Assembly (NCBI GenBank): GCA_016839955.1 | Contig: JAEOTI010000113.1 | Span: 1-10,037, forward strand | Source of the DNA: Candidatus Hodarchaeota archaeon | GTDB lineage: Archaea > Asgardarchaeota > Heimdallarchaeia > Hodarchaeales > YT1-057 | DNA: 10,037 bases | Reading direction: 5' to 3' | Shown here: positions 1 through 9,160 of the stretch, in pieces | Position numbering within the stretch: position 1 is the stretch's first letter | Layout of the letters: the number at the start of each line of letters is the position of its first letter | Position numbers and translations under genes: made by a program | Notes under the pieces: generated by a model | Told to the model about the DNA's origin: nothing | Database searches by the model: none | Seen by the model: the letters and a program-made list of their open reading frames with translations, nothing else

Positions 1-869
1 AATACTGAGTCTTCCATTCCTAATATGATTTTGAACACTTCTTGCGTCATTAAACCACCAATCACAAAGGATACTGACGAAACTGAAGGAATCTTTTCTT
101 CAGGTTCCTCATAGGTTTCCTTCCGACGTTCGCCGACAGGTGGGCAGGCTTTTTGAAGGCGATGAGGAGGGATTAAGGGTTGACATTCTAAGCAAGGAGT
201 TTTGTCAGGAAGGTATACCTGGAGATTTCCCCAGAATCCAAACATTCCACCTGAAACTAATGGAATTTTCTCACCCACAGCTAAACCATTTACCCATCTT
301 CTTGTATCAAAGTTATCTAAACCATCAACTAGAACATCAAGATTCTTAAATTCTTTCTTAGGTAGTTCTTGAATTGGAGAATCAAAGGCTCTTATTTTGA
401 TATTAGAATTGATCCCCTGAAGCATTATAGCAGCATGATTCGCCTTTGAACCTCCGATGTGGAAGTCTCGAAACAACAATTGTCTAGAGAGATTACTTAT
501 TTCTATAGTATCCATATCAACAATAATTAACTCTCCCACACCAGACATTGCAAGCGCTGCGGCAACAACAGATCCAAATGCCCCAGCTCCTACAATCATC
601 ACTTTAGCATTGCTTAACTTCTGTTGATCCCACCCATCAACGAGAAACTGTCGAGAGTATCTCTCTCCTTTGTCTTTTTGTTTTTTGGAAGGATTAAATT
701 GAGCTGCATCCAAATTCTTTACTGTAAAGCGTCTATGTCCACCCTTTGTTCGATAAGGATTCAGAACATTTTGTTTTTCTAGTCTTCGAAGAAAAGAAAT
801 CGAAATACCTAAATATCTTGCAGCTTCAGAAGAAGTAAGATCCCGAGGAACTTTCTTTCGAGAAGACAT
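1..869 (-). CDS. HTH-fused E1-like ubiquitin-activating enzyme (ThiF/E1 adenylation domain), partial at its C-terminus
   Basis: This gene starts at ATG 867-869 and stays open to the window edge, giving 289 codons without a stop; the C-terminus lies outside. Residues about 11-55 form a MerR/excisionase-type helix-turn-helix, with SSEAARYLGIS followed by RTKGGHRRF. After a short Lys-rich linker, about residue 70 onward is an E1/MoeB/ThiF domain: RYSRQFL, nucleotide-binding GAGAFGS (94-100), VDMDTIEISNLSRQ (117-130, with Asp118, Asp120, Asn126, Arg129), Lys142, and DGLDNFDTR (182-190). A zinc-type CxxC pair follows at 226/229; its second pair would lie beyond the edge. Cys242 (ACPPVGER) is the likely thioester cysteine by position. 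Family role: adenylate the modifier's C-terminal glycine and pass it to an E2. It follows the Ubl gene by 54 bases on the same strand, with AAGGTGA before the ATG, so the two probably form an operon. The HTH fusion is unexpected. A MoeB/ThiF sulfur-transfer role is possible but less likely given the Ubl, E2 and RING genes nearby. Confidence 0.93.
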   Translation of the reverse strand, partial: MSSRKKVPRDLTSSEAARYLGISISFLRRLEKQNVLNPYRTKGGHRRFTVKNLDAAQFNPSKKQKDKGERYSRQFLVDGWDQQKLSNAKVMIVGAGAFGSVVAAALAMSGVGELIIVDMDTIEISNLSRQLLFRDFHIGGSKANHAAIMLQGINSNIKIRAFDSPIQELPKKEFKNLDVLVDGLDNFDTRRWVNGLAVGEKIPLVSGGMFGFWGNLQVYLPDKTPCLECQPLIPPHRLQKACPPVGERRKETYEEPEEKIPSVSSVSFVIGGLMTQEVFKIILGMEDSV

Positions 870-923
870 GGGATTTCACCTTCTTCTGCTCCATAAACGA
901 TGTTTAAACCTTAATTTGTGAGA

Positions 924-1169
924 CTATAAAGATGAATTACCGCCTTCAGTGCGTGTAATTAGATACAATTTATCGAGAGGGCCCACTCCAGCTTCTTCAA
1001 GTGTCATAAAGTCATCAAGTTGTTGTCCACGAAATACAACGATAACCATTTGAGGAGGAATTCTTTTTTCTCTAGCCACTTCAGCTTTCACATCTTTTAC
1101 CAAAGAATCTTTTTCAACACTAACTGTAAGTTCGCCACCGCCTATTGCCGAGACTACTGTAACTTTCAT
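924..1169 (-). CDS. Ubiquitin-like modifier precursor with di-glycine and four-residue tail
   Basis: An 81-residue beta-grasp protein closely resembling ubiquitin: SLVKDVKAEV, then IPP (37-39), FRGQQLDD (46-53), TL (56-57), and KLYLITRTEGG. From the ATG at 1167-1169 the Gly-Gly falls at 76-77, almost exactly where ubiquitin ends. The tail NSSL follows, so this is a precursor that must be cut before the E1 can activate it; in related archaea a JAMM/Rpn11-type protease does this. Lysines are at 2, 20, 25, 28, 35 and 67. The positions matching ubiquitin Lys48 and Lys63 are Gln and Pro, while Lys28 matches Lys27. An in-frame TTG at 1191-1193 would add eight residues, but the AAGGAG lies between it and the ATG, so the ATG is preferred (spacer about 12 bases, slightly long). 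The gene probably heads an operon with the E1 gene. Confidence 0.93.
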   Translation of the reverse strand: MKVTVVSAIGGGELTVSVEKDSLVKDVKAEVAREKRIPPQMVIVVFRGQQLDDFMTLEEAGVGPLDKLYLITRTEGGNSSL

Positions 1170-1329
1170 TGAAGTTTCAAACTCCTTATTCAAAATTTTA
1201 AATCTTTAAATGGAGAAAATCCGATTTCAACTTTAATCTAACAATATGTTGTAAAAAACCTTCCTCAATCTGTCATCTTTTGGAAAGTGAGATAAGCAAT
1301 TGGTAGATATTTCAAGTGGAGTTAGCAAA
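1170..1329. promoter_or_regulatory. Divergent promoter region between the Ubl-E1 and coiled-coil-RING units
   Basis: This 160-base AT-rich stretch separates two outward-facing units of the ubiquitin locus. On the minus strand TTTAAAG at about 1204-1210 lies some 35 bases upstream of the Ubl ATG, a plausible archaeal TATA box with a short leader. Two short dyads are visible: AAATC-C-GATTT at 1217-1227 (perfect 5-base arms) and ACAATATGTTGT at 1241-1252 (one mismatched pair). Either could be a protein-binding site, but arms this short occur often by chance in AT-rich DNA. No clear plus-strand TATA box stands out. Confidence 0.4.
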
Positions 1330-1773
1330 ATGGATCGGGAACTCGAAATAGAATCCCTTAAAACCCCAAAAGGAGGAACAGTTCCAACAGTAAAGGGTTT
1401 ACAAACAATTATTGATAATATATACAAAGATCTAAGCCCATTAGAACAATCTCTTGCGGGTTTAACTCAAGGTTCTCAATCAGTAGCTAATAATGTCGAA
1501 AATCTCTCAAACCGCCTTGAATCCATACAACAATTTCTAGCTGACTTCCTCTTAATGCTTGGAAAAATTGATGCAGCTCTTTCGCAGCTCAACCAACGTG
1601 TAATGAACCTAGAAAACAATCAAGAGGGTTCAGGAATAACTAAATTAGATCTATTTGAAATCCGGGGTTCCCTTGCGGATTTATTAGCTCAATCTAAATT
1701 CTCTGATATATTTGAAGATGTCCAACAAAGTGTAAGGTCTGAAAGTAACGTGAAGGAACGAGATGATGTTTAA
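1330..1773 (+). CDS. Coiled-coil protein of unknown function, coupled to the RING gene
   Basis: I do not recognise a family. The protein has 147 residues, is acidic and soluble, has no membrane segment or signal peptide, and contains no cysteine. About residues 22-97 look like one long helix with hydrophobic residues at heptad spacing (for example VENLSNRLESIQQFL and IDAALSQLNQRVMNLENN), so a coiled-coil dimer or oligomer is likely. A Gly-rich break (about 100-102) is followed by a second predicted helical stretch, then a charged tail. The start chosen is ATG 1330, which has GGAG eight bases upstream; an in-frame TTG at 1300 has no comparable site. Its end overlaps the start of the RING gene by 11 bases, which suggests coupled translation and a shared complex. 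A scaffold, substrate adaptor or oligomerising partner for the RING protein is an inference from position only. Confidence 0.8.
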   Translation: MDRELEIESLKTPKGGTVPTVKGLQTIIDNIYKDLSPLEQSLAGLTQGSQSVANNVENLSNRLESIQQFLADFLLMLGKIDAALSQLNQRVMNLENNQEGSGITKLDLFEIRGSLADLLAQSKFSDIFEDVQQSVRSESNVKERDDV

Positions 1774-2104
1774 AAATAAAATTAGAGTGAAATCGACTGA
1801 ATCACAAGGTTCTGATGCAAGTACATCAGTCAAATTGCCTTTATTACTACCAAACCTTGGACCTCAAATTAGCTCTATTTATACAAGAATCATCCTCTCT
1901 CCAAAAATATCCTTTGAATGGACATTTGAAGAGGATCTAAAGTGTGAGATTTGCTGGGGGAAAATTAAACCAGGGGAAAAGACACAAGAATGTTCTAATT
2001 GTAATAGGAAGTTTCATTATGCCCACATAGTCACTTGGCTTCGTTCTAAGGACTTTTGTCCAAGCTGTCGGACTAGTTGGTACAGTTCAAGACCATCTCG
2101 CTAG
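1763..2104 (+). CDS. Small RING-finger protein, probable E3 ubiquitin ligase
   Basis: The protein has 113 residues with a C-terminal RING-type zinc module. Candidate ligands are Cys61-x2-Cys64, Cys77-x2-Cys80, His85-x2-His88 and Cys99-x2-Cys102. This C4-H2-C2 order resembles RING variants with CxxC...FHxxC...W...CPxC, but the sixth ligand is His instead of Cys. Residues that contact an E2 in known RINGs are present: Ile63 in the first zinc loop, Trp92, Pro100, and Arg103 straight after the last cysteine, the usual place of the linchpin arginine. The first 50 or so residues are Ser- and Pro-containing and have no recognised fold. GAAGGA precedes tandem ATG codons at 1763 and 1766; either may be the start. 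Co-location with Ubl, E1 and E2 supports a ligase role, and small RING proteins are known from other archaeal ubiquitin clusters. Another zinc-binding role is possible. Confidence 0.88.
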   Translation: MMFKNKIRVKSTESQGSDASTSVKLPLLLPNLGPQISSIYTRIILSPKISFEWTFEEDLKCEICWGKIKPGEKTQECSNCNRKFHYAHIVTWLRSKDFCPSCRTSWYSSRPSR

Positions 2105-7638: not shown

Positions 7639-8661
7639 TTGGATGTACAAGAGGTTCTTTCAAAAGGATTTGTATTAGTTTTAGACCCAACTTCAGAGAG
7701 ATATGGAACAGAAGGAGGAAGTATTACAGATCCTAACGCTTTTCTAGCTGAGTATGGTGGTTGGTTAGAAGAAATTGCTATTGTAGCAAAAGCTGAAAAC
7801 GGAAAAGTAACCTATCAAAGTGCAGCGGCCCCAAAACATCAAAATGCAATCTTTCCGGATTTCGTAGAATTAGCAAATGATCTAGGGATTAAAACCTATG
7901 CTATTATTCATAGTATGGGTGATCAATACTTCTCCCAGGACTTTGATTATGGCGTGGTTCGATCTGGTGGCACCCAAGTTCGTCATTTTATTTGTCCTTC
8001 CCAAATCAGTTTTTGGAAGTACCTAGGAGCCGTAAGCAGAGAGATTGCGAAATATCCCGTCGAAGGTTTAGTTTTCTTAGAGTTTATGTTCCCCCGTCGA
8101 GAATTCTGTTTCTGTAGACGATGTTCGCGAGGTTTTAGTGATTTAACTGGTATTTCTGCTGATTTCACTTTTAATACAATAGTAGGCGATCCTGAGTATT
8201 ATGAACGATTTATAGAATGGCGGAGTGAAATTTTAACAGCAGCTTTCGAAGAAGTCTTTGCTGCAGCCCGTACTGTAAAACCGGATATTAATTTAATCCC
8301 AGTTGTAGATATTGACCCCGAAACAGGTTGGAAACAAGGTACAAAGGAACATTTTGGTTACGAAGTTGATAAATTAGTTGCAACTAATCCATTTCTTGGA
8401 TACCATTTAATGCCTTTCTCACCAATCGCACCTGAACCTGGGTCTACATCCTGGGAGGACCTTCGCGCTGCTTTACATACTAGCCCGCAATTTGAAGGAT
8501 CTTACGACAAATCCCTTGTGATTTGGGGATTAGAACAAGAAGAAGACGGAGCTTGGATTCTTCAATTGAAAGACGAAACAAATGCTAAACGCATCTTTGG
8601 TCGTTTAAATTACCCAGCAAGTTATAATGTGAAAAGAGAAATTCATCGTGGAATTTCTTAA
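7639..8661 (+). CDS. Putative TIM-barrel glycoside-hydrolase-like protein, substrate unknown
   Basis: The 340 residues show alternating strand-helix segments expected of a TIM barrel: FVLVLDP (11-17), LGIKTYAIIHS (82-92), VEGLVFLEFMF (141-151) and INLIPVVDID (218-226). The stretch EFCFCRRCSRGFSDLTG (155-171, Cys157, Cys159, Cys162) is the kind of Cys-containing loop seen after the fourth strand in several uncharacterised glycosidase-like families; Glu148 in LEF just before it could be catalytic. No signal peptide is seen, so the protein appears cytoplasmic. The start is TTG 7639 with GGAAG eight bases upstream; nearby ATG codons are out of frame or stop at once. It diverges from the MBL-fold gene and ends 16 bases from the convergent E2 gene. 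I place it by fold and motif only; no substrate or pathway is shown. Confidence 0.75.
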   Translation: MDVQEVLSKGFVLVLDPTSERYGTEGGSITDPNAFLAEYGGWLEEIAIVAKAENGKVTYQSAAAPKHQNAIFPDFVELANDLGIKTYAIIHSMGDQYFSQDFDYGVVRSGGTQVRHFICPSQISFWKYLGAVSREIAKYPVEGLVFLEFMFPRREFCFCRRCSRGFSDLTGISADFTFNTIVGDPEYYERFIEWRSEILTAAFEEVFAAARTVKPDINLIPVVDIDPETGWKQGTKEHFGYEVDKLVATNPFLGYHLMPFSPIAPEPGSTSWEDLRAALHTSPQFEGSYDKSLVIWGLEQEEDGAWILQLKDETNAKRIFGRLNYPASYNVKREIHRGIS

Positions 8662-8677: not shown

Positions 8678-9160
8678 TCAAAACTGTGGTCTAGGAAGTC
8701 GTGGTGGAGGTTTTTGACCCCAAACCGCATACCGCTTTACATATTCTCGTGCTTTAGCTGAAAATTTATCAAAATCTTGAAGATATTGACGAGCTGCAGT
8801 GGTATTCAAAGGATCTTTTGGATTTGGATTCGAGAGGAGAAACCTTAGAGTTTCAACGAGATCCACCAAAGAATTGGCAGGAGACCAGTCTTTTCCGAGT
8901 ATTCCTACACACACCCGGTCTCTAAAGATATTTGGATGCCAGGTGTTTGTCATCCAACGAACTTCAGGATATCTAAATGGATAATTTCGGGGAATAATAA
9001 TATCTACAAGAAAAACTCCACTTTCGAATACACCAGTCCCAAGTATTTCTCCGCGCCAATGAGCCCAAGAACCGTCTACAGGCTTAAATGTAGGTTCCTC
9101 TTTCATGAGATCTTTAGCTTCTAATGCAAGCCTGTCCATCCACTCTTCTTCTGATAGCAT
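8678..9160 (-). CDS. E2 ubiquitin-conjugating enzyme (UBC fold)
   Basis: A 160-residue protein with the complete UBC core: WRGEILG (35-41), GVFLVDIIIPRNYPFRYPEV (48-67), WHPNI (74-78, His-Pro-Asn triad 75-77), catalytic Cys84 in VCVGIL, DWSPA (91-95), and NPNPKDPLN (111-119) followed by helices rich in Ala, Tyr and Lys. It would accept the activated modifier from the E1 as a thioester and pass it to substrate, probably with the RING protein. The core is very like eukaryotic E2s. The tail QKPPPRLPRPQF is proline-rich and extends past the last helix. ATG 9158-9160 is the only sensible start; its ribosome site (GAAAGAAG) is weak. The gene stands alone: convergent with the glycosidase-like gene, divergent from the flavin-reductase-like gene, and about 6.5 kb from the RING gene. 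Confidence 0.95.
   Translation of the reverse strand: MLSEEEWMDRLALEAKDLMKEEPTFKPVDGSWAHWRGEILGTGVFESGVFLVDIIIPRNYPFRYPEVRWMTNTWHPNIFRDRVCVGILGKDWSPANSLVDLVETLRFLLSNPNPKDPLNTTAARQYLQDFDKFSAKAREYVKRYAVWGQKPPPRLPRPQF

Follow-up and report, generated by a model that had tools for sequence, protein, structure and literature searches.

At the edge of the analyzed window, that is the whole stretch of 10,037 nucleotides of Candidatus Hodarchaeota DNA, we found a gene that joins a MerR-type helix-turn-helix (HTH) domain to an Asgard ubiquitin E1 in one intact frame, and the analysis confirmed it as a genuine fusion (Table 1). An E1 with a DNA-binding head in an Asgard-type archaeon suggests that the enzyme at the start of the ubiquitin pathway may double as a gene switch, in all likelihood for its own gene. 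We know of no description of how archaeal ubiquitin systems are regulated. A previous sequence-only reading of this DNA was aware of no described ubiquitin E1 with such a domain, and the literature searched is in agreement: among the titles and abstract beginnings listed, which covered few subscription papers or preprints, none described an E1 with a DNA-binding domain. In addition, an HTH on E1 is absent from the available parts of PMC5654768, PMC9192718, PMC11354881 and PMC10936438, and the term HTH was not found in the available part of PMC1779556.

Table 1 Features of the window around the fusion gene and of the associated ubiquitin genes (window positions).
Feature	Position	Strand	Evidence and remarks
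HTH-E1 fusion gene	3..869	minus	289 codons, runs past the window start; full-length homologues P0001 and P0002 have 400 aa
ThiF/E1 adenylation domain, residues 71-285	15..659	minus	Pfam ThiF 1.3e-56
C242 codon, candidate catalytic Cys	144..146	minus	Invariant in the 70-row alignment
Variable linker, residues 56-68	666..704	minus	1/13 columns invariant in three sequences
MerR/HTH_17 winged helix-turn-helix, residues 11-55, wing RTKGGHRRF	705..839	minus	Pfam, NCBIfam excise, AF2 fold, Foldseek (weak E-values)
Ub/E1 gene spacer	870..923	minus	SD-like GGTGA and in-frame TGA ahead of the ATG
Ubiquitin precursor, ends RTEGG-NSSL	924..1169 from ATG	minus	Pfam ubiquitin 2.4e-11
Intergenic region, putative HTH target	1170..1329		AT-rich imperfect palindrome at 1188-1211
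Coiled-coil protein	1330..1773 from ATG (ORF 1300-1773)	plus	Weak Pfam coiled-coil matches; overlaps the RING gene
Small RING-finger protein, E3 candidate	1763..2104	plus	zf-RING_2 3.3e-07, 30.9 bits (cut-off 27.3)
E2 ubiquitin-conjugating enzyme, HPN and single Cys84	8678..9160	minus	UQ_con 3.9e-28

Reading frame and start of the fusion gene

The ORF list of the window shows the frame to be open throughout, without stop or frameshift, which bears out the earlier claim that it runs unbroken from the HTH into the E1. Only 289 of about 400 residues of the HTH-E1 protein are visible; the rest lies beyond the window edge, and the E1 on which the sequence-only reading was based is thus incomplete. 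The ATG at 869 has the SD-like sequence GGTGA a few bases 5' and an in-frame TGA three codons earlier (TGA AAT CCC ATG). The additional claim that there is no internal start between the two domains has to be corrected, as a TTG exists at residue 53. This is the sole other in-frame ATG, GTG or TTG before residue 90, and no SD-like sequence was seen 5' of it. The first 66 codons have a GC3 of 0.17 and the remaining ones of 0.31, a contrast that is weak because the first stretch is short.

An assembly error, a frameshift or a wrongly chosen start was considered as an explanation of the additional domain. In its favor, the relatives read begin at about residue 66–69. The possibility raised earlier, that homologues start at about residue 69, indeed holds for the other Asgard E1s read, including P0003 and P0004, but not for P0001 and P0002, which carry the HTH. 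These two homologues come from other contigs and share the architecture; therefore, chance, a chimera or a frameshift is very unlikely, and this also holds for a chimera or frameshift near 660–700, where the sequence-only reading had advised to look for one. Since the ATG moreover has an SD-like sequence and an in-frame stop shortly 5', the probability left to an artefact is very small, barring one error common to all three sequences, and a chance fusion is likewise rejected given the shared architecture.

A MerR-type winged helix at the N-terminus

The assignment of the N-terminal domain to the MerR/excisionase type was upheld by Pfam matches above the cut-offs and by the same architecture in P0001 and P0002. 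In the window protein, Pfam matched MerR at residues 12–48 (6.9e-08, 32.6 bits, cut-off 28.2), HTH_17 at residues 11–55 (1e-07, 32.5 bits, cut-off 27) and MerR_1 at residues 12–55 (1.5e-06, 28.7 bits, cut-off 21.6), and the NCBIfam excise domain was matched with 30.7 bits (cut-off 28.8). Structure prediction, which had been proposed as a check, agreed with this assignment. The HTH was folded and searched alone, and lists obtained with the full-length model (Foldseek/VIA) barely probe it. The predicted fold is an HTH with a wing, comprising helices at residues 13–20 and 24–32 and strands at residues 38–40 and 46–48. In the Foldseek search, the top rows belong to the MerR family with a probability of 1.00, the best E-value being 0.018 and none reaching 0.001. 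Many of the top rows are DNA-bound structures, with HiNmlR, BldC and SoxR among the top MerR-family rows.

The residues R28, R40, G43-G44, H45, R46 and R47, which we take to be DNA contacts on the basis of MerR-family structures, are invariant in the window, P0001 and P0002. These basic-wing residues are also found in free-standing and recombinase-type Asgard HTHs, and their retention suggests that the fused domain may bind DNA. The HTH part is basic (pI 10.6–11.05) as opposed to the acidic enzyme part (pI 5.4–6.2). It is the N-terminal domain that resembles MerR, BldC and excisionase HTH_17 proteins, in sequence as well as in predicted fold; within the searches made, such a domain is joined to an E1 only in P0001, P0002 and the window. 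Identity with an IS607 TnpA recombinase was rejected: the HTH is followed by the linker and ThiF, and no recombinase family appeared in the Pfam scan.

Distribution among Asgard E1 enzymes

The HTH-E1 fusion is rare. HTH domains occur in 2 of 104 database relatives, namely P0001 ('Hodarchaeota', 3,985-base contig) and P0002 ('Heimdallarchaeota', 327,155-base contig), which both have 400 aa, at 72% identity. MerR, HTH_17 and MerR_1 were matched in three rows of a 70-row alignment consisting of 69 of these relatives and the window; the other 35 relatives have no HTH in their precomputed domains. When the HTH alone (P0002 residues 1–66) was used as query against proteins of 220–700 aa (0.55–1.75 times 400), only P0001 and P0002 were found at E 1 among 53 candidates. 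A letter-based search for free-standing HTH copies gave one candidate and none at E 0.01; both of these searches reach only relatives sharing exact five-residue words. The suggested search for HTH plus ThiF architectures thus had a divided outcome: P0001 and P0002 were found, but the upstream frames held no HTH in any of the 69 genomic E1 loci read. These were taken from 126 loci of the best matches, the others lying below the cut-off applied; the 69 count the same gene twice in some cases and include two loci that are not Asgard E1s.

Among the genome contigs, the best relatives are about 45% identical and most top rows match from residue 57–70 on, with L006 (from residue 37) and L034 (from residue 24) as exceptions by match start. 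A tblastn search of the HTH against the first 80 loci yielded a weak match in L034 (E 0.58) and a gene in L007. Both were rejected: the L034 frame at the site of the match stops after 38 codons without an HTH, and the HTH-like match near the E1 of L007, considered as a regulator, proved to be a recombinase-type gene. With P0002 as query, 81/227 Asgard genomes were matched at 1e-60. Within the Heimdall-type class, each of the 58 genomes gave a match at E 0.001, although not all of the latter matches are orthologues. Viral contigs gave eight pattern matches and no relative, and the 253 plasmid records matched were all below 60% identity (top row 33%).

The proteins P0003 and P0004 (335 aa, starting MEGERYSRQ and MESERYSRQ, respectively) are annotated without HTH; in the E1 part, 197–201 of 220 residues are identical to P0001/P0002. 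The window and P0001–P0004 form one clade in the tree (100/100), and the starred branches of the tree require the HTH label to have changed at least twice, e.g. by one gain and one loss. Because such closely related E1s are annotated without HTH, the domain is probably dispensable for catalysis, and regulation, if any, would therefore be lineage-specific.

Conservation of the HTH core

We then compared the window with P0001 and P0002 column by column. Columns invariant in all three sequences amount to 27/37 in the HTH core (residues 11–47), 2/21 in residues 48–68 and 165/220 in the E1; the core boundary follows the Pfam MerR match (12–48), yet was chosen with the alignment in view, and the counts are those of three sequences only. 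By Fisher's test, the core differs from residues 48–68 (p 5e-06) but not from the E1 (p 0.84). For the full HTH_17 range, the numbers are 28/45 (residues 11–55) versus 1/13 (residues 56–68; p 0.001), with p 0.10 against the E1, and residues 48–55 at the end of this match are poorly conserved (1/8 invariant). Gapless pairwise comparison of the window gave, for the core, residues 48–57, the linker (58–68) and the E1 (69–288), identities of 28/37, 4/10, 1/11 and 169/220 with P0002, and of 29/37, 1/10, 2/11 and 171/220 with P0001. Since the core is conserved like the E1 while residues 48–68 are not, the HTH domain looks to have been kept by selection.

Linker and E1 part

The linker is probably flexible, with a pLDDT below 50 at residues 60–76 of an AF2 model of P0002 that was built from an 18-row alignment. 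In the E1 part, D118, D120, N126, Q130, K142 and D185 are invariant in the 70-row alignment and G94/G96 nearly so, and C226 and C229 lie in a zinc-type CLEC motif. C242 is the candidate catalytic cysteine and may form the thioester. Around this residue (window 135–146), the window reads ACPP, where ACTP is nearly invariant in relatives. In the P0002 model, strands of the C-terminal part, a putative ubiquitin-fold (beta-grasp) region, extend to residue 399 and the alignment to UBA3 to residue 400; the window stops at residue 289. UBA3, the catalytic subunit of the NEDD8 E1, differs from the window E1 in that it is not known to have a DNA-binding domain and acts as a heterodimer.

With the archaeal ubiquitin E1s (the E1-like protein of Caldiarchaeum subterraneum and Asgard E1s), the window E1 shares the adenylation domain, the CxxC zinc-type cysteines, the candidate catalytic Cys, a C-terminal part which, judged from the P0002 model, aligns up to where UBA3 ends, and the location of the gene near those of ubiquitin, E2 and RING. 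However, the archaeal E1s that were read begin with the adenylation domain, whereas that of the window is preceded by HTH and linker (about 66 residues). Other arrangements were observed as well. A Lokiarchaeal E1-like gene (L071, 10001–11599; 533-codon frame) has, judged by eye, a long charged and probably helical insert in the E1 part, and P0070 (417 aa) is a Ub-E1 fusion with ubiquitin (ending RTEGG) and E1 in one frame. A ubiquitin-domain Pfam match was present in 17 of the 70 aligned E1 rows; in several of those other than P0070 it may represent the C-terminal part.

Ubiquitin gene neighborhood and divergent promoter region

The ubiquitin gene is located directly 5' of the E1 gene on the same strand, and the coiled-coil and RING genes are divergent. 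By sequence, the E1 would be expected to activate the neighboring ubiquitin in an ATP-dependent manner. The window genes were sought in 152 loci, many of which are just about 4 kb and too short to show the block. Three loci of about 19–21 kb (L002, L020 and L148) carry genes related to E1, Ub, coiled-coil, RING, g2435, MBL, g7639 and E2 in the window order, and the window therefore represents a Heimdall-type ubiquitin neighborhood. Compared to the window, g2435 is reversed in these loci, MinD and AlaRS have no match, and extra genes lie between Ub and coiled-coil in L148 and L002. Inspection by eye of this gap (L148, 10762–12312; L002, 8209–9621) revealed a small-GTPase-like and a KaiC/RadA-like ATPase ORF that are absent from the window. 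Two window genes without Pfam or NCBIfam match (7639–8661 and 2435–2887) recur in the three blocks at about 37–44% identity. The overlapping coiled-coil and RING genes (1300–2104) also recur there as a pair, possibly a two-part E3.

Given this arrangement, the HTH-E1 may regulate its own operon. The repeats listed for 870–1340 comprise three inverted pairs and a single direct one. The palindrome at 1188–1211 has 9/12 pairs and was matched by 29/200 shuffles; gapped inverted repeats in 1170–1329 were equally good in 91/100 shuffles, and the direct repeats of this region were equalled in 186/200. As no repeat in 1170–1329 is significant versus the shuffles, none is called an operator. A sigma-70 scan, based on a bacterial model ill-suited to archaea, found no promoter.

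Possible functions of the fused domain

The reading we favor, although we consider it about as likely as not, is that the protein combines a ubiquitin E1 with a DNA-binding regulator, in which the ubiquitin-bound state of the E1 tunes DNA binding, most likely at the divergent Ub-E1/coiled-coil-RING promoter. According to this model, the C-terminal part would activate the ubiquitin encoded next door, passing from adenylation via the thioester to the E2. The winged HTH on its flexible linker would bind DNA once two copies meet on an E1 dimer. Occupancy of the E1 by Ub-adenylate or thioester, or engagement of the E2, would set the DNA affinity, and feedback would result, most likely on the divergent promoter. 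The kept basic wing, the opposite charge of the two halves, the flexible linker and the gene position fit such a combination of enzyme and regulator. Counted against it are the lack of a significant repeat in 1170–1329, the HTH-less sisters, the restriction to three carriers and the variability of residues 48–55.

The idea that the Ub-adenylate or thioester state could set DNA binding is based on analogy with BirA and RbkR. The enzyme fold of BirA is unrelated to that of E1, its HTH is of another family, and its modifier is biotin instead of ubiquitin; RbkR is a riboflavin kinase, unlike E1, and its HTH differs from the MerR/HTH_17 type. Nevertheless, BirA of group II is likewise an adenylating ligase with an N-terminal HTH, group I has none, and the HTH of B. 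subtilis BirA can be removed without harm to ligation, as stated in the available part of PMC4016012. Archaeal RbkR, according to the available part of PMC8305020, is a gene regulator and enzyme in one and thus likewise an archaeal HTH-enzyme fusion, with an HTH-less orthologue (MJ0056) that is an enzyme only. That the E1 is a ligand-gated transcription factor, whose DNA binding is controlled by Ub-adenylate or Ub-thioester occupancy, is a tentative proposal that we judge somewhat less probable than its converse. If true, the enzyme that opens the cascade would give the cell a direct reading of its ubiquitin supply, and this in a lineage of archaea near the eukaryotes. The short separable domain and the natural occurrence of HTH-plus and apparently HTH-minus sisters make this testable in vitro, like in BirA.

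Besides a regulatory role, the HTH might tether ubiquitin activation to DNA or chromatin, in a broad or nonspecific manner, and load the E2 near DNA-bound substrates without any control of transcription. This would be in line with the basic HTH and its intact wing, the predicted disorder of the linker and the fact that no significant operator-like repeat was found, but MerR/HTH_17 domains are normally sequence-specific DNA binders and nothing in the window suggests DNA-bound substrates, and we consider such tethering unlikely. We are more doubtful still that the winged helix has turned into a protein-binding module for ubiquitin, the E2 or the coiled-coil/RING proteins, similar to the RRE of MccB or the winged helices of ESCRT, which take part in protein complexes. 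MccB, which emerged from the structure search as a neighbor of the E1 part, is a ThiF-like, E1-like enzyme whose N-terminal winged RRE holds the peptide. Asgard ESCRT systems use winged helices as well (available part of PMC10936438). However, the domain is of the MerR/HTH_17 type by sequence and has kept the wing RTKGGHRR, and no MccB, RRE or ESCRT row appeared in the best 50 of 811 HTH matches, a result that still leaves room for such a likeness.

It also appears quite improbable that the domain is a functionless passenger, i.e. an HTH of a mobile element that was captured beside the E1 and has since disappeared from the P0003/P0004 lineage. HTH_17 was matched in 71/227 Asgard genomes at E 1e-5, and 22/37 HTH ORFs listed from 50 loci showed a pattern of the resolvase type (YxRVS or a looser form), falsely so in one case or more, including the second copy in L153; we presume the recombinase-type ORFs to be of the IS607 kind. 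In L007 (3750–6293), an HTH-recombinase and a TnpB-like ORF, presumably an IS607-type transposon, are located directly upstream of the Ub and E1 genes. This apparent element and the annotation of P0003/P0004 without HTH would speak for a passenger. Against it stand the core columns of the HTH, whose conservation equals that of the enzyme and is not shared by the adjoining residues, and the nature of the closest Asgard HTH found, which is no recombinase but a free-standing ORF of 63 aa with 54% identity over 46 residues.
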